Part shown: positions 29,947 to 53,967 of the stretch, one piece after another
How the letters are laid out: the number at the start of each line of letters is the position of its first letter
How positions within the stretch are numbered: position 1 is the first letter of the stretch
Assembly (NCBI GenBank): GCA_900315485.1
Contig: OMZI01000021.1
Span: 1 to 64,000 of the forward strand
Length of the DNA stretch: 64,000 bases
DNA from: an uncultured Eubacteriales bacterium
GTDB lineage: Bacteria > Bacillota > Clostridia > Peptostreptococcales > Anaerovoracaceae
Direction: 5' to 3'
Notes under the pieces: generated by a model
Told to the model about the DNA's origin: nothing
Seen by the model: the letters and a program-made list of their open reading frames with translations, nothing else
Database searches by the model: none
Translations under genes and position numbers: made by a program

Positions 29947-30027
29947 TGTAAAAAATGTGTAAAGAACTGGATTTTACATGCTTTTTACATTAGTCTGCGT
30001 TCCCGTTTTACATTCAGTCTGTATTAT
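29947..30027 (+). promoter_or_regulatory. Pho-box-like promoter region
   Basis: TTTTACAT occurs at 29972 and 29983 (11 bp apart) and at 30006. On the opposite strand TTTACA occurs twice, also 11 bp apart (29947-29963). A -10-like TATTAT lies at 30022. Direct TTTACA-type repeats at 11-bp spacing are how Gram-positive PhoP boxes are built. Confidence 0.55.
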
Positions 30028-30069: not shown

Positions 30070-31869
30070 ATGAATATATTTAACATACTTACAATGATAG
30101 GAGGCCTCGCACTGTTTCTGTACGGCATGAGTGTCATGGGAGACGGACTGATGAGGTTCTCAGGCGGCAAGCTTGAAAGAATACTTGAAAAGCTAACAGA
30201 CAAGCGTATAAAGGGTTTGCTGCTGGGCATAGCAGTAACTGCGGCGATCCAGTCGTCTTCCGCTACGACGGTAATGGTTGTCGGATTTGTAAACTCCGGG
30301 ATCATGAAGCTCAGCCAGGCGGTCGGCGTGATCATGGGAGCCAACATCGGTACTACGGTCACATCATGGATACTGTCGCTGACAGGCATTCAGAGCGACA
30401 GCATGCTTCTGAGCCTTCTCAAGCCGAGTGCTTTTTCACCTGTCGTTGCAGCGATCGGCATATACATGTATATGAAGGGAAAGGACGGCAGCAAGGGAAA
30501 GAATATCGGCATGATCCTGCTTGGCTTTGCTGTCCTGATGTTCGGCATGGAGACAATGAGCGGAGCTGTGGCACCTCTCAGTGAAAGTCCTGCCTTCGTA
30601 AATATCCTGACCCTGTTCTCCAATCCGCTCTTTGGAATCGCTGCAGGAGCGATCGTCACAGCAGCTATCCAGAGTTCATCGGCATCCGTCGGAATACTGC
30701 AGGCTCTGTGCATCTCAGGCGCTATCAACTACTCATCTGCAATTCCGATCATAATGGGCCAGAACATCGGTACCTGCGTCACAGCGCTTCTGTCATCGAT
30801 GGGAGCGGGAACCAATGCCAGAAGAGCATCGTTCATACACCTGTACTTCAACCTGATAGGCACTATAGTGTTCACGACACTTTTCTATGTGGCTCATGGC
30901 TTCCTGGATCTGTCATTTGTGAATCAGCCGGCTACCGCGGCAGGAATAGCCCTGATACACAGCGTGTTCAATATATGCTGCACAGCAATGCTGTTCCCGT
31001 TCGGAGACAAGCTGGTCAAGCTCGCGATCAGAACCGTACCGGAGACTGAGGCTACTGAGGCTGAAATCAAGGCTAACAGAGCATCCGAGATGGGACTTGA
31101 TGAGAGATTTCTTGAGAGACCGTCCTTTGCGATCCAGAGGTGCAAAGCAGCCGCCAATGAGATGGCGGATAAGGCAAGCGATGCATTTATGCTTGCGATG
31201 GACGTCCTGAAAAAGTACGATAAAGAAAAGGCCGAAGCGGTCATCAGACTCGAGCAGGAATGCGATGAGTATGAGGACATCATAGGCACATATCTGGTAA
31301 AACTGTCGGGCCGTGATCTGTCGAGGGAAGACGGACAGCTGATGTCGCTGGTGCTCCATGCTATCAATGACTACGAGCGCATATCCGATCACGCGATCAA
31401 CGTGGTGGAGGCTGCACAGGAGATGCAGAGCAAAGGAATCAGCATGACATCATACGGAAGTCTGGAGCTCGATGCATTCGGTAAAGCGATCAGGGATATA
31501 CTCATGATAACGGATGAGGCGTTTATCGCATCTGACCGGAATAAAGCCAGACAGATCGAACCTCTTGAAGAGGTGGTAGATAATCTCAGTGCCGAGATGC
31601 GTCAGAGACATATCGACCGTCTCCGCAAAGGCCTGTGCTCAATGGAAGCAGGCATTATACTGGAAGACATTCTGATATACTTTGAGAGAGTCTCTGATCA
31701 CTGCTCCAATATCGCACTTTGCCTCATAGAGATAGGAGAGGATTCGTTCGGCCGTCATGAATACGCCAGCGAAAGAACAAAGGGCAGTGACCCTGAATTC
31801 CAGAGCACTTATACCAGAATGAGAAACAGGTATACACTGCCTAAGATACAGGAAGGAATGGTCGGATAA
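30070..31869 (+). CDS. Na/Pi-cotransporter family protein with PhoU-like tail
   Basis: 599 residues. The membrane half (about 1-310) has the duplicated PNaS motif: QSSSATTVMVVGFVNSG and QSSSASVGILQALC. The C-terminal half (about 350-560) is helical and PhoU-like (HAINDYERISDHAINVVE, ILIYFERVSDHCSNIALC). It is predicted to move phosphate with sodium. A Pho-box-like promoter precedes it, and the stop overlaps the PhoB-like regulator start, so transport and signalling genes form one operon. A paralogue lies at 50048. Confidence 0.9.
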   Translation: MNIFNILTMIGGLALFLYGMSVMGDGLMRFSGGKLERILEKLTDKRIKGLLLGIAVTAAIQSSSATTVMVVGFVNSGIMKLSQAVGVIMGANIGTTVTSWILSLTGIQSDSMLLSLLKPSAFSPVVAAIGIYMYMKGKDGSKGKNIGMILLGFAVLMFGMETMSGAVAPLSESPAFVNILTLFSNPLFGIAAGAIVTAAIQSSSASVGILQALCISGAINYSSAIPIIMGQNIGTCVTALLSSMGAGTNARRASFIHLYFNLIGTIVFTTLFYVAHGFLDLSFVNQPATAAGIALIHSVFNICCTAMLFPFGDKLVKLAIRTVPETEATEAEIKANRASEMGLDERFLERPSFAIQRCKAAANEMADKASDAFMLAMDVLKKYDKEKAEAVIRLEQECDEYEDIIGTYLVKLSGRDLSREDGQLMSLVLHAINDYERISDHAINVVEAAQEMQSKGISMTSYGSLELDAFGKAIRDILMITDEAFIASDRNKARQIEPLEEVVDNLSAEMRQRHIDRLRKGLCSMEAGIILEDILIYFERVSDHCSNIALCLIEIGEDSFGRHEYASERTKGSDPEFQSTYTRMRNRYTLPKIQEGMVG

Positions 31870-48000: not shown

Positions 48001-48272
48001 CAATTTGGGCAAGTTTTTGCACAAATACACAAATATCCGCCGGAAAGAGGCAAAAAAGAGGACGGTATTTGGCAAAAACCACAAACAGGTTCCGGCAGAC
48101 GGAATATGGCGAGATGTAGGAAGATTAGGGGCCGAGGTAAGATGATTGCAATATGTGCAGAAATACAGAGCGGCTTATGATATGATTAACCCGTCTTGAA
48201 ACGATTTGCACTGCGGGCACGAACCGGCTGAATGCGGTGAGCCTGCAGATCATACAGAGAAGGGAAACGGAA
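48001..48272. other. Upstream region of galT
   Basis: No gene. AT-rich, with no clear regulatory motif. The ribosome-binding site GAAGGGA is at its end. Confidence 0.4.
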
Positions 48273-49754
48273 ATGAACGCAGTAAAAGCACTTACCGGTT
48301 ATGCATTGTCCAGAGGACTGATCGAAGAATGCGAATGCATCTGGGCGATGAACACGATCATCGATGTTCTCGGAGCTGATGACGTACCGGAAATAGAAGT
48401 TCCTGACGATGCAGAGCTCAGCGTCATCCTCGATGCACTGACGGATTTTGCATATGAGAACGGCACTCTGAAGGAGAACTCAGTTGTCTACAGAGACCTC
48501 TTCGATACAGAGATCATGGGCAGGCTCACACCGAGGCCGGCACAGGTAATAAGTGAGTTCGGGGCAAAATACGCTGAGAGTCCTGAGACTGCTACTGAGT
48601 GGTACTATGAGTTCAGTCAGGATACCAACTATATAAGAAGAGACCGCATCCGCAAGGATGTGAAGTGGGTCGCTCCGACAGAGTACGGCGACCTCGATAT
48701 AACGATCAACCTGTCCAAGCCGGAGAAGGACCCGAAGGCTATAGCTGCTGCCCGCAACATGCCTGCATCCGTCTATCCGAGATGCCAGCTGTGCGCTGAA
48801 AATGAGGGCTACGCAGGCAGAGTCAATCACCCTGCAAGACAGAACCACAGGATAGTTCCTATCACGATCAACGGATCGGACTGGTTCCTTCAGTATTCGC
48901 CTTACGTTTACTACAACGAGCACTGCATCTGTTTCAACCGTGAGCATACACCGATGAAGATAGACCGCGCGTGCTTCTCCAAGTTGCTCGACTTTGTCCG
49001 CCAGTTCCCGCACTACTTCGTAGGCTCGAACGCTGACCTGCCGATCGTAGGCGGATCCATTCTTGCGCATGATCACTTCCAGGGAGGACACTATACTTTT
49101 GCGATGGCAAAAGCGCCTGTTGAGACACCGTTCGTGTTCAGCGGCTACGAAGATGTTGAGGCCGGGATCGTAAAGTGGCCGATGTCTGTCGTAAGGATCA
49201 GCTCGGAAGACCCTGAAAGACTTATAGACCTGGCAGATAAGGTCCTCGGAAAGTGGAGAGCATACACCGATGAAGAGGCCTTCATCTACGCTGAGACAGA
49301 CGGGACTCCGCACAACACGATCACACCGATCGCAAGAAGACGCGGTGACAAGTATGAGCTCGACCTGGTGCTCAGAAACAACATCACGACGGAAGAGCAT
49401 CCGCTCGGCGTATATCACCCACACGCAGAGCTCCATCACATCAAGAAGGAGAACATCGGCCTCATCGAGGTAATGGGACTGGCTGTGCTGCCGGCAAGGC
49501 TTAAGGACGAGCTGAGGGCTGTCGCTGACTGTCTTGCAGCCGGCGGAGACCTCAGAGCTGATGAGATGACAGCCAAGCACGCTGACTGGGCTGAGGAGTT
49601 CAGCGGCAGATACGAAATAACTGCAGACAATGCTCTGGATATCGTGCAGAAGGAGACCGGAATCGTATTCTCGAAGGTCCTTGAGCACGCCGGCGTATAT
49701 AAGAGGGATGAAGCCGGAAGAGAGGCTTTCCTGAGATTCCTGCAGACTGTTTAG
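48273..49754 (+). CDS. galT: UDP-glucose--hexose-1-phosphate uridylyltransferase, class II
   Basis: 493 residues from ATG 48273 behind GAAGGGA. This is the longer Bacillota-type GalT. Motifs: YPRCQLCAENEGYAGR, the nucleotide-binding INGSDWFLQYSPY, and the active-site histidines in GGSILAHDHFQGGHY. It moves UMP between glucose-1-P and galactose-1-P in the Leloir pathway. No galK or galE lies nearby; the next gene has its own riboswitch-controlled leader. Confidence 0.93.
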   Translation: MNAVKALTGYALSRGLIEECECIWAMNTIIDVLGADDVPEIEVPDDAELSVILDALTDFAYENGTLKENSVVYRDLFDTEIMGRLTPRPAQVISEFGAKYAESPETATEWYYEFSQDTNYIRRDRIRKDVKWVAPTEYGDLDITINLSKPEKDPKAIAAARNMPASVYPRCQLCAENEGYAGRVNHPARQNHRIVPITINGSDWFLQYSPYVYYNEHCICFNREHTPMKIDRACFSKLLDFVRQFPHYFVGSNADLPIVGGSILAHDHFQGGHYTFAMAKAPVETPFVFSGYEDVEAGIVKWPMSVVRISSEDPERLIDLADKVLGKWRAYTDEEAFIYAETDGTPHNTITPIARRRGDKYELDLVLRNNITTEEHPLGVYHPHAELHHIKKENIGLIEVMGLAVLPARLKDELRAVADCLAAGGDLRADEMTAKHADWAEEFSGRYEITADNALDIVQKETGIVFSKVLEHAGVYKRDEAGREAFLRFLQTV

Positions 49755-49849
49755 GATGTGCTAAAAACACTGAATTGTACTGAAAAATATGTCAGACAAT
49801 ATCAACGAACTGCTTGACATCACTGGTTGTATATGATTAAGTTGTAAAC

Positions 49850-49977
49850 GACCAAATAGGGAGTAGCTGGCGCAGAAATGCGTGACATATTTCGTCAATA
49901 CGGGAAAGATACCCCGGAATATGTTCGAAGTAGCGAGACTTTTGCCGTCGTTTTGCGGTGAAAGTCTCTTTTTATAA
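49850..49977 (+). promoter_or_regulatory. yybP-ykoY manganese riboswitch with terminator
   Basis: Conserved blocks of the Mn2+ riboswitch are present in order: GGGAGTAGC (49859-49867), TTCGTCAATACGG (49891-49903), a CCCCGG stretch, and AGTAGCGAGACTTTTGCC (about 49929-49946). The 3' block leads into the terminator GAGACTTT/AAAGTCTC plus TTTTT (49935-49975). The next gene, 70 bp downstream on the same strand, is a Na/Pi-cotransporter family protein. High Mn2+ should favour read-through. Confidence 0.83.
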
Positions 49978-50047
49978 ACAGCGCCTGTCCGGTGCGTATG
50001 CCGGGATCGAAGGCTGCAGAAAGGTATAAAAAGGGTTTAAGTAATAT

Positions 50048-51805
50048 ATGGATTTTACTAACATTATTTCGCTTCTCGGCGGAGTAGCGTGCTTCCTCTT
50101 CGGAATGTCCGTAATGGGAGACTCGCTCAAGAAAGTAGCCGGAAGCAAGATGGAGATGGTCCTGTACAAACTGGCAGGCAACCCTGTCAAGGGTATCCTG
50201 CTCGGAACAGGAGTAACAGCAGTTATCCAGTCTTCATCTGCGACATCTGTCATGGTCGTCGGCTTCGTCAACTCGGGGATGATGAAAGTCCGTCAGGCCA
50301 TAGGCGTCGTTCTCGGAGCCATCCTCGGTACGAGTATCACCGGATGGATCCTCGCACTGAACAGCATCGGCGGCGGATCGAGCGTAGCATCCTACTTCAG
50401 CACTGAAGTGCTTACAGGAGTTGTGGCTCTCTTCGGTATCATTCTGTGGATGTTCGCCAAGAAGACTTCCTCCAAGAATGTAGGCGGGATCATGATGGGC
50501 TTTGCGGTCCTGATGTATGGAATGAGCATGATGTCAGGCTCTATCGCACCTCTGAGAGAGGATCCGAAATTTATCGATATGCTGACAAGCTTTTCCAACC
50601 CTATCCTGGGTGTTCTTGTAGGTCTTCTGATCACTGCAGTGATCCAGAGCGCAAGTGCTGCTGTAGGTATTCTTCAGGCACTTGCCATGACCGGAGCTGT
50701 ACAGTTCGACATGGCGTTTCCGATCCTGATGGGTATCGGAATCGGTGCATCTGTACCGGTAATGCTCAGTGCTCTCGGAGCCAGCACCAACGGCAAGAGA
50801 ACAGCGTTTGTATATCTCATCATAGATGTACTCGGTGCAGTAATAGTCGGATCGCTTTTCTATATTCTTAATGCGATAATCGGATTCAGCTTCATGCACC
50901 AGACAATGACGATGGTTGCGATCGCTCTTACCAACACTCTCTACAGGCTGGCTGTCGTGATAATTCTTGCACCTGCTATCGGACTGCTCGAAAAGATCGT
51001 TATCGCAATATTTCCGGAGAGCGAGGAGGCGGCTGCCGAGCAGGCAGACATGGACAGACTCGAGTCCAGATTCCTTAACCACCCTGCACTGGCTATCGCT
51101 CAGAGCAGAACCGTAATCGACTCAATGGCTGAGAAGACGCTCGAGAGCGTTAAAGAGGCTCTGGCCATCAGACAGGAATTCAGCAAGACAGGTCTCAAGA
51201 GAGTACTCGAACTTGAAGGCGTGATCGACAGATATGAAGACAAGCTGGGAACATATATTTTCAAGATCACTTCAGCAAACCTCGATGATGAACAGTCAAG
51301 AGACGTCAACAAGTATCTCAGAGTACTTTCGGATTTTGAGAGAATGTCCGACCACGCGAGAAATATCGGCGAAGCGGTTCAGGAGATCCAGGACAAGAAG
51401 GTCAATTTCTCTGCAATGGCTGATAAGGAGCTCCGTGTTCTTGAAAACGCGATCGGTGATATCACAGATATGACTATCAAGGCGTTTATCAACAATGACA
51501 GAACTCTGGCTTTGAGAATAGAGCCGCTTGAAGAGGTAGTCGATGACCTCTGTGACGAAATCAAGGCTAACCACATAGAGAGAGTCAGCCGTCAGGAATG
51601 TACTCTTGAGAACGGATTTGTATTCAACGATCTTCTGACTGACTACGAGAGAATCTCAGATCACTGCAGCAATATCGCCGTGGATATTATCGAATCCGGT
51701 CCGGAAGGTATCAAGCTTCATGAGTATCACATGAAGCACGATTACAGATCGGATGAGGAATTCCAGAAGTACTTCAGTGAGTACAAGGAGAAATATTCAT
51801 TCTAG
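50048..51805 (+). CDS. Na/Pi-cotransporter family protein, Mn-riboswitch linked
   Basis: 585 residues, same architecture as the protein at 30070: duplicated QSSSATSVMVVGFVNSG and QSASAAVGILQALAM in the membrane half, then a PhoU-like helical half (YLRVLSDFERMSDHARNIGE, DLLTDYERISDHCSNIAVDI). The second repeat has QSAS where the paralogue has QSSS. It is preceded by a Mn2+ riboswitch, not Pho boxes, and has no phoBR partners. Family knowledge says phosphate transport; the control suggests a link to manganese, possibly export or Mn-phosphate balance. That is inference. Confidence 0.88.
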   Translation: MDFTNIISLLGGVACFLFGMSVMGDSLKKVAGSKMEMVLYKLAGNPVKGILLGTGVTAVIQSSSATSVMVVGFVNSGMMKVRQAIGVVLGAILGTSITGWILALNSIGGGSSVASYFSTEVLTGVVALFGIILWMFAKKTSSKNVGGIMMGFAVLMYGMSMMSGSIAPLREDPKFIDMLTSFSNPILGVLVGLLITAVIQSASAAVGILQALAMTGAVQFDMAFPILMGIGIGASVPVMLSALGASTNGKRTAFVYLIIDVLGAVIVGSLFYILNAIIGFSFMHQTMTMVAIALTNTLYRLAVVIILAPAIGLLEKIVIAIFPESEEAAAEQADMDRLESRFLNHPALAIAQSRTVIDSMAEKTLESVKEALAIRQEFSKTGLKRVLELEGVIDRYEDKLGTYIFKITSANLDDEQSRDVNKYLRVLSDFERMSDHARNIGEAVQEIQDKKVNFSAMADKELRVLENAIGDITDMTIKAFINNDRTLALRIEPLEEVVDDLCDEIKANHIERVSRQECTLENGFVFNDLLTDYERISDHCSNIAVDIIESGPEGIKLHEYHMKHDYRSDEEFQKYFSEYKEKYSF

Positions 51806-51816
51806 ATAATATAGCG

Positions 51817-51981
51817 GCCTGTATATATATCCTTCAGGCTATAATTCTCGAAGAGCTTTTCGCATCATTTTTGCATCCTTACGGGTTGCCCGCTCTTCTG
51901 CGAACCAGTCACAAGGGGAACCGCTTGCGGTGGATTCCTTATGACAGATAGCCTTCCGGATATATATACAGGCTACTTTTT
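51817..51981 (+). ncRNA. Three-way-junction RNA or elaborate terminator
   Basis: A 16-bp perfect stem (51817-51832 with 51958-51973), a 3x3 internal loop, and a further 7 bp (51836-51842 with 51948-51954) close a 105-base apex. The apex holds two arms: GAAGAGC/GCTCTTC (51850-51898) containing CGGG-ttg-CCCG, and GTCACAAGG/CCTTATGAC (51908-51945) capped by CCG-CTTG-CGG. TTTTT follows the stem. No known class is recognised. It may be a small RNA, the leader of ftsH, or the terminator of the gene before. Confidence 0.55.
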
Positions 51982-52149: not shown

Positions 52150-53967
52150 ATGAACGAGGTTAACAGACCGCGGAAACCGCTGCTTATCTTCTATATAGCA
52201 GTTCTCCTTATCCTGTTCATGTGGAACTCCATGATCGCCCCGATGGTGGCCGAACAGGAAATTAAGGAAGTTGACTACGGCACCTTCATGACCATGACCG
52301 AGAAACAGCAGGTCGGCAAGGTGCAGATAGAGAGCAACAAGATACTTTTCACAAACAAGGACGGCTCTAAGACGTACAAGACCGGAGTGATGAATGACCC
52401 GGATCTCGTCAACAGACTCCACGCATCCGGAGCGGAGTTCACCAGCGAGATCGTTGAGGAGATGTCGCCTGCGGCAAGCTTCTTCCTGAACTGGATACTG
52501 CCGATCATCATTTTCGTTGTGCTCGGTCAGTATCTGAGCAGAAGGATGATGGACAAGGCAGGCGGCGGCCCTGGATCGATGATGTTCAACCTGGGCAAGA
52601 GCAATGCCAAGGTGTATGTAAAATCATCTGACGGAATCAAATTCAGCGATGTCGAGGGTGTCGATGAGGCAGAGGAAAACCTGCAGGAGATCGTAGACTA
52701 CCTCCACAACCCGGAGAAGTACCGTGAGATCGGAGCTTCGATGCCTAAGGGCGTACTGCTCGTTGGCCCTCCGGGAACAGGTAAGACCATGCTCGCCAAG
52801 GCTGTAGCCGGCGAAGCTGATGTACCGTTCTTCTCGATGTCCGGCTCTGAGTTCGTTGAGATGTTCGTCGGCATGGGAGCATCCAAAGTACGTGACCTCT
52901 TCAGGCAGGCCAAGGAGAAAGCTCCGTGTATCGTATTCATAGATGAGATCGATGCTATCGGTCAGAAGAGAAACAGCGGAAATCTCGGCGGCAATGACGA
53001 GAGAGAACAGACTCTGAACCAGCTTCTGACTGAGATGGACGGATTCGAGGGCAACAGCGGCGTAATCATCCTCGCTGCGACCAACCGTCCGGAATCACTA
53101 GATCCTGCGCTCACAAGACCGGGACGTTTTGACAGAAGAGTACCTGTCGAGCTACCTGACCTGCAGGGAAGAGAAGCCATCCTCAAGGTTCATGCGAAGA
53201 ATGTCAAGGTCGAGAAGGATATCGACTACAGCGCTATCGCAAGAATGGCATCCGGCGCATCCGGAGCTGAGCTTGCCAATATAGTAAACGAGGCAGCTCT
53301 CAGAGCGGTCCGTGACGGACGTAAGGCTGCAAATCAGACAGACTTTGAGGAAAGTATCGAGGTAGTCATTGCGGGATACCAGAAGAAGAATGCGATCCTC
53401 ACAGATAAGGAGAAGAAAATAGTTGCTTATCACGAGATCGGTCACGCGCTGGTCGCTGCAAAGCAGACTAATTCAGCGCCGGTCCAGAAGATCACGATCA
53501 TCCCGCGTACTTCGGGAGCACTCGGCTATACTCTCCAGGTCGATGAGGGCAACCACTACCTCATGAACAAGGAAGAGCTCGAGAACAAGATAGCAACTCT
53601 TACCGGCGGCCGTGCTGCAGAGGAAGTTGCTTTCGGATCAGTGACAACAGGCGCTTCGAACGATATCGAGCAGGCGACCAAGCTGGCGAGAGCGATGATC
53701 ACCCGCTACGGAATGAGCGATGACTTTGACATGGTCGCTATGGAGACGGTTCAGAACCAGTATCTCGGCGGAGACACTTCGCTTGCGTGCTCGGCAGAGA
53801 CACAGGCTAAGATCGATGAGAAGGTCGTTGAACTTGTCAAGCAGCAGCATGAGAAGGCTGTACAGATCCTGACCGAGAACAGAGAGAAGCTCGACGAACT
53901 CGCAGCTCACCTGTATGAGAAGGAAACGATCACAGGCGAGGAGTTCATGAATATTCTCAACAGCTGA
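52150..53967 (+). CDS. ftsH: ATP-dependent zinc metalloprotease FtsH
   Basis: 605 residues. Spans at about 10-29 and 110-129, AAA domain with Walker A GPPGTGKT (about 205), Walker [35 protein letters not shown], and protease site YHEIGHALV (about 427) with the third ligand in the GGRAAEE region. It degrades membrane and short-lived regulatory proteins. AGAGAGG lies before the start, and a terminator follows. Confidence 0.95.

Follow-up and report, generated by a model that had tools for sequence, protein, structure and literature searches.

A compact manganese riboswitch without helix P4 probably controls the transcription of a gene for a Na+-coupled phosphate transporter, switching it on when Mn2+ is high and serving manganese defence; from comparison of sequences we give this reading a probability of about 0.7. 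The DNA analysed, called the window hereafter, is a stretch of 64,000 nucleotides from an uncultured bacterium of the Anaerovoracaceae, and the leader, its likely promoter box, its terminator and the gene behind it all lie on the forward strand. We infer that Mn2+ is the ligand and ON the sign of the switch and, with less assurance, that phosphate remains the cargo of the protein and that its role lies in manganese defence. An earlier note on this DNA had proposed a manganese riboswitch of the yybP-ykoY type in front of a gene of the Na/Pi cotransporter family (PNaS), whose protein it thought might export or buffer manganese or fit phosphate flux to Mn2+. The Mn2+-type riboswitch is supported by the L1/L3 core, by the overlap between P1 and the terminator and by the export-gene contexts of the leader, whereas the textbook yybP-ykoY form is not, as P4 is absent and the Rfam model RF00080 fails.

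The gene at 50048..51805 encodes a PNaS protein of 585 amino acids with a C-terminal PhoU domain (PF02690, 3.4e-54; PF01895, 5.7e-26). The Na_Pi_cotrans and PhoU matches reach 183 and 91 bits, with two stretches of each, the NF037997 (Na/Pi symporter) cut-off is exceeded, and both Pfam and NCBIfam place the protein in the family. It is similar to SLC34A2a (9z60) and PhoU (1xwm) and carries the QSSS-type repeats QSSSATSVMV and QSASAAVGIL. The best named match is a protein from an uncultured Clostridia MAG that is 98% identical over its whole length, and the close relatives come mostly from goat, sheep and rumen MAGs, several of them labelled Mogibacterium sp., a member of the Anaerovoracaceae within the Peptostreptococcales. 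The neighbours are genes for a hexose-1-phosphate uridylyltransferase (48237-49754) and for FtsH (52150-53967). In the gap between the PNaS gene and ftsH, at 51816-51973, the arms GGCCTGTATATATATCC and GGATATATATACAGGC stand around some 125 bases, and pieces of 36-47 bases from this stretch are repeated, with 85-89% identity, at three further sites in the genome; this is possibly a small dispersed repeat or a structured RNA.

The aptamer occupies 49854..49943. It scores 106 and 88 bits with two covariance models described below (R1 and R2), values that are partly high by construction since the window is a seed of R1 and is also in the R2 alignment, and its structure is backed by covariation in 99 leaders. 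The conserved blocks of the yybP-ykoY type were found in order and at the positions previously assigned to them, i.e. GGGAGTAGC at 49859-49867, CGTCAATACG at 49893-49902, CCGG at 49914-49917 and AGCGAGAC, the closing strand of P1, at 49932-49939; helix P4, however, is absent. The 5' strand of P1.1, the loop L1 and P1.2 together span 49855..49867, with the partner strand at 49933-49943, and L1 itself reads GGAGUA (49860-49865). In the leader alignment 92.7% of the P1.1 cells and 100% of the P1.2 cells are paired, and P1.2 exchanges G-C for A-U and C-G for U-A. Helix P2 (49870..49883) is paired in 98.5% of cells, with changes on both sides in 3 of its 4 pairs. Helix P3 (49884..49925), likewise supported by covariation, encloses the internal loop L3 (GUCAAUACG .. 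CC), and its lower part shows both-side changes in all 10 pairs and is paired in 94.4% of cells.

The loop L3 reads GUCAAUACG at 49894-49902. According to the available part of one structural study (PMC6754395), the Xanthomonas oryzae aptamer is a four-way junction in which L1 and L3 dock and an invariant adenosine reads Mn2+, the discriminator being A41 in Lactococcus lactis and A48 in X. oryzae. When the L3 letters are aligned, the matching adenosine in the window is at 49897, and the CA of L3 is present in all 160 aligned leaders. The window leader thus holds the metal-binding L1/L3 core of the manganese riboswitch, with GGAGTA and GTCAATACG both in place.

The comparative models were started from the pattern GGAGTAGC-N10-40-CGTCAATNCG, which occurs once in the window's genome and in 10 of 99 genomes, all of one genus. 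The ten leaders found in this way precede a PNaS gene of the window's type (5), a PNaS gene of a second type (1) or a P-type ATPase gene (4), and they served, the window among them, as the seeds of R1. This model detected 113 leaders in 98 of 296 genomes of the family (29 of 92 genera). We fetched 110 of these at once and the remaining 3 later, and 99 of the 110 entered the covariation alignment. Both-side changes occur in 20 of 23 pairs (17.3 in shuffles), and double-change cells number 543, compared to 148 in shuffles and 54-103 when the partners are slid; fitting the alignment to the structure favours covariation, but the margin is large nonetheless. In the ten seed leaders by themselves the covariation is weak. 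With the second model, R2, 167 of the 297 genomes searched in the order gave leaders at E<=0.001, and the window's genome, a 2.5 Mb draft that is 85.6% complete, has a single one. For the survey of targets we chose, from longer lists, an order set of 60 leaders (19 from this family, 41 from others) and a phylum set of 88. Some named loci are near-copies of one another: L025, L026, L037 and the window correspond to L260, L259, L295 and L258, the genomes being identical or almost so and present in two collections. That the leader is more than a chance resemblance is borne out by its helices, which covary, and by the ten pattern genomes, in each of which it precedes either a PNaS or a P-type ATPase gene.

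The standard Rfam model does not see this RNA. RF00080 has no match at its gathering score in the window, and none at E<=10 either in 49760-50060 or across the whole genome; the earlier note had named the lack of a significant covariance-model hit as grounds for abandoning its reading. We attribute this to the compact form of the leader, i.e. the lack of helix P4: only CGAAGTA (7 bases, 49926-49932) joins P3 to P1.2, so that the junction is three-way, unlike the four-way junction of the X. oryzae crystal structure as given in the available part of the report (PMC6754395). The corresponding stretch is shorter than 14 bases, too short for P4, in 147 of the 160 aligned leaders and longer in 13, proportions to be read knowing that R1 and R2 were built from P4-less RNAs and are biased towards such RNAs. 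The model is insensitive in this group as a whole, since none of 29 tested leader loci of relatives and none of 60 relatives exceeded its cut-off, and Rfam's manganese model therefore overlooks such leaders here. Across 398 genomes of the phylum, RF00080 was over its cut-off in 8 and at E<=0.001 in 62 (6 candidates scored per genome), and R2 found leaders in 125 at E<=0.0001 (11 candidates scored per genome). We rejected the conclusion that there is no riboswitch, since core, terminator and gene contexts are all conserved despite the missing match. A match of the window leader to rnk_leader (Rfam, E<=10) was discarded as well, being sub-threshold and without recurrence in the relatives. In all, the leader is like yybP-ykoY (RF00080) in its L1 GGAGUA, its 3' AGNGAGAC, the L3 with the Mn2+-sensing CA, the helices P1, P2 and P3, the intrinsic terminator that overlaps P1 and, in relatives, the Mn2+ export genes as targets; it is unlike it in lacking P4, in having a Na/Pi transporter as the target in the window and in giving no RF00080 match at E<=10.

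It is instructive to compare the leader with SSRC10 (RF02617, 'Streptococcus sRNA 10'), whose printed consensus has the same P4-less order of blocks, although it is filed as an sRNA. On the window this model gives 17.3 bits, below its cut-off of 56, and in 7 of 9 relatives it ranks first among the Rfam families that stay under their thresholds. One leader, L335 (L335:1501-1606), which is sense to a P-type ATPase gene, matches it with 67.8 bits. In the available text of the original description (PMC3675131), SSRC10 is an sRNA of Streptococcus pyogenes flanked by a hypothetical gene and, on the same strand as that gene, a 'putative calcium transporter'. We therefore take SSRC10 to be, probably, a P4-less manganese-type riboswitch ahead of a calcium-type P-type ATPase; against this counts that the same text, in which it is detected with a 3' probe, puts it on the complementary strand, where a leader of that gene would not lie (PMC3675131).

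The expression platform is an intrinsic terminator at 49935..49973, with a stem of 14 pairs (49935-49968) and a T run (49969-49973). It is one terminator-like site where 0.4 are expected in shuffles. As the earlier note had it, the terminator is fused to the aptamer: the 3' strand of P1.1 forms part of its 5' arm, so that the terminator competes with the closing helix P1. In all 24 leader-PNaS loci the terminator starts no more than 12 bases before the aptamer's end, whereas after shuffling a terminator of any kind appears in 5 of 24, and the same overlap is seen in 68 of 79 ATPase, 19 of 23 MntP and 17 of 20 CaCA leaders. The T run ends 74 bases before the start codon of the PNaS gene (the script used for the gaps given below makes it 76); the distance noted before was 70 bp, on the same strand.

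Upstream, conservation points to TTGACA at 49814..49819, 40 bases before the aptamer, as a likely -35 box followed by a weak -10. Within 60 bases upstream, 21 of the 24 leader-PNaS loci have TTGAC at a distance of 35-42 bases from the aptamer (1.6 in shuffles), so that transcription should start at the leader, even though the strict pattern TTGACA-N15-19-TATRAT was not found in the window. A consensus scan, which also missed the likely upstream promoter, showed no promoter-like site between the terminator and the PNaS gene. The terminator is 23-41 bases from the start codon in 12 of the 24 loci, too few for a promoter, and 53-153 bases in 9; in the other 3 the start codon picked by our script lies inside the terminator. 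As far as the sequences tell, the terminator overlap together with the upstream promoter box is the architecture of an ON switch that works by antitermination. At low Mn2+ the leader would fold the terminator (49935-49968) and transcription would stop before the PNaS gene. At high Mn2+ the ion would bridge L1 and L3 and P1 would close; the closed P1 would take its 3' strand from the terminator, and the PNaS gene would be read.

The genes behind the leader link it to metal export. The 170 leaders of the family and order precede genes for P-type ATPases (79), PNaS (24), MntP (23), CaCA (20), CitMHS (5), TerC (5), OadB (5) and UPF0016 (3), assigned mostly by BLAST grouping with one or two members per group checked with Pfam; the remainder are two other genes (L120, L190), a CaCA-like fragment (L162) and three cases in which no reading frame was found. 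Families of the Mn2+/Ca2+ export type (P-type ATPase, MntP, CaCA, TerC, UPF0016) account for 130 of the 170. The association with Mn2+ export genes (MntP, UPF0016/GDT1, TerC, CaCA, P-type ATPase) thus holds in the relatives and not for the window's own target. The 88 leaders of the phylum set precede genes for ATPases (23), CaCA (20), MntP (11), UPF0016 (9), OadB (6) and TerC (5), and 14 have targets without a match to the first set, among which six look TerC/YkoY-like and four LemA-like by eye. Several rarer placements may be recorded here. OadB, the beta subunit of Na+-pumping decarboxylases, stands behind the leader in 11 loci of several families, one of them checked with Pfam (L153, L154, L176, L182 and L187 in the order set; L379, L381, L393, L398, L401 and L404 in the phylum set). 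CitMHS-family transporters follow the leader in L044, L056, L077, L101 and L204, the one in L101 with a weak likeness to the magnetosome protein MamN (79 bits, cut-off 500). The four LemA-like cases are L356, L357, L397 and L416, and L120 and L190 carry the leader before an SPFH/HflK-like protein and a YtvI-like membrane protein.

Whether PNaS genes of relatives carry the same leader was a question raised by the earlier note, and they do: the 24 of 170 leaders above are all from four genera of the window's family (g1 16, g48 5, g12 2, g70 1), and the window's genus has 45 leaders in 36 of its 47 genomes, of which 31 stand directly before PNaS, in 31 genomes. Seen from the side of the genes, 31 of the 91 PNaS genes of the genus have the leader directly before them and 60 do not. 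No PNaS target was found among the 41 leaders from other families of the order (2 of them without target identification) or among the 88 of the phylum (4 without), so that the pairing may go back to a small number of recruitments.

Within the family the pairing has been made or broken more than once. Among 76 named PNaS loci R2 found 37 strong leaders, 35 of them immediately before the gene and those of L270 and L289 some 1.9 kb upstream of it; the leader of L297 is cut by the contig end, that of L267 looks decayed, six loci have too little upstream DNA to judge, and the others have no leader. In two other genomes of the genus (G019:C6, G032:C10) a single leader precedes two consecutive, different PNaS genes, as if it drove both, an arrangement that may explain the distance at L270 and L289. 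On the PNaS tree, from which 10 fragment loci (with a leader in L317, L321 and L323) and the too short L314 had been left out, the clade of the window's type has 57 rows, 17 without a leader and 40 with one, the latter counting the cut L297, the decayed L267 and four near-copies. The leader label is clustered on the tree (14 changes, 23.2 in shuffles), and well-supported branches force at least 9 changes, which means repeated gain or loss of the leader. A separate PNaS group with full support, made up of L046 and L050, also carries leaders, and L045 is by sequence a third type, though its branch is very long and its placement unsure. Two PNaS lineages or more therefore carry the leader, and the four genera concerned all belong to one family. 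Named MAGs with the leader bear mixed and unchecked labels (Erysipelotrichaceae L299, Oscillospiraceae L291, Eubacterium L316). In L299 a SAM riboswitch (56.4 bits, L299:5085-5171) lies downstream of the leader-bearing PNaS gene.

What the protein carries is a separate matter. The signature motifs of phosphate transporters are intact and much alike in PNaS proteins with and without the leader, and no leader-specific changes were found in these motifs when the two were compared, which favours phosphate rather than manganese as the predicted cargo. The window has a second PNaS-PhoU gene (30070-31869) without a leader, and a third PNaS gene of the genome is on contig C8. Upstream of the second, at 29973-29989, there are TTTACA repeats 11 bases apart, which we take to resemble PhoP/PhoB boxes. 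In the named loci such repeats precede 8 of 31 non-leader PNaS genes, above the 1.25 expected by chance; for leader PNaS genes the figure is 2 of 39, which matches the expected 2.05. One kind of pump may thus be wired in two ways, to phosphate starvation in some cases and to manganese in others. Seven of the eight repeat-bearing genes without a leader are outside the clade of the window's type or absent from the tree; L300 is inside it.

Published relatives act in both directions. In the available parts of two sources YjbB, a PNaS protein, is said to promote phosphate export (PMC11389368, PMC13170248), NptA imports phosphate, its Staphylococcus aureus form having a C-terminal PhoU-like domain as the window protein does (PMC13170248), and PitA imports metal:phosphate complexes (PMC11389368). 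NptA and YjbB belong to the same transporter family as the window protein by published description, and a Mn2+ riboswitch is not mentioned for either in the available part of PMC13170248.

For the PNaS proteins under the leader we prefer metal-free phosphate import to the export of either phosphate or manganese. Since PitA takes up metal:phosphate complexes, a Na+-coupled route would deliver phosphate without manganese, and PNaS could supply it when metal:phosphate uptake of the Pit type would add Mn2+; alternatively, the supply might be needed because Mn2+ ties up the phosphate of the cell. A protein of the YjbB kind, which at high Mn2+ would let phosphate out, perhaps together with Mn2+, so that less manganese is trapped or co-imported, is the strongest competitor, if a rather unlikely one. 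Sister genomes do put export-type families under the same leader, and the roles of leader and non-leader PNaS may differ, given how the phosphate-box-like repeats are distributed between them. The leaderless, repeat-bearing PNaS genes, however, i.e. the second one of the window and L300 within the leader's own clade, count for import over export.

Less probable again is that PNaS itself exports Mn2+ or a manganese-phosphate complex. It keeps company under this RNA with MntP, UPF0016, TerC, CaCA and P-type ATPases, and the one leader of the window's genome, 85.6% complete, is before PNaS, while the genome's one PF00690 P-type ATPase is on contig C27, where no leader was found. But the close likeness of the phosphate-transporter motifs with and without the leader does not favour it, and eight genomes have both a leader-PNaS and a leader-P-type ATPase, so that PNaS does not simply replace the ATPase exporter. 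It is improbable that the P4-less leader senses a different ligand such as Na+, to which PNaS, CaCA, CitMHS and OadB could all be linked: OadB does follow 5 of the 60 leaders chosen from the order and 6 of the 88 chosen from the phylum, and CitMHS follows 5 of 170, but among the aligned leaders this P4-less RNA also stands before MntP 24 times and before UPF0016 3 times, and the discriminator CA, with the adenosine described as reading Mn2+ in the available part of PMC6754395, is in 160 of 160 leaders. The leader might also resemble a riboswitch by accident, or be a dead remnant that leaves the PNaS gene uncontrolled, and the missing RF00080 match and the decayed leader of L267 could be cited for this; such a reading is next to impossible to reconcile with sequence conservation, covariation, terminator and promoter box over dozens of genomes.

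We found no published link of yybP-ykoY with a cotransporter, or of yybP with PhoU, in the open-licence literature. The nearest parallel is that of fluoride riboswitches, also ion-sensing and also found before phosphate transporters, where the available text reads them as a defence against the ion; the ligand and the RNA are different, and the placement before phosphate transporters is described there as occasional (PMC9971707). The PNaS-PhoU protein under the leader might, as we tentatively suggest at somewhat less than even odds, form a new arm of manganese homeostasis that either moves Mn2+ or manganese-phosphate out or switches the cell from metal-coupled to metal-free phosphate uptake. 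If PNaS does move Mn2+ or manganese-phosphate out, it would be a new manganese efflux family. As the leader and PNaS are paired in 31 of the 47 genomes of the genus and in three further genera, and in more than one transporter lineage, the link between manganese and phosphate would be directly testable.
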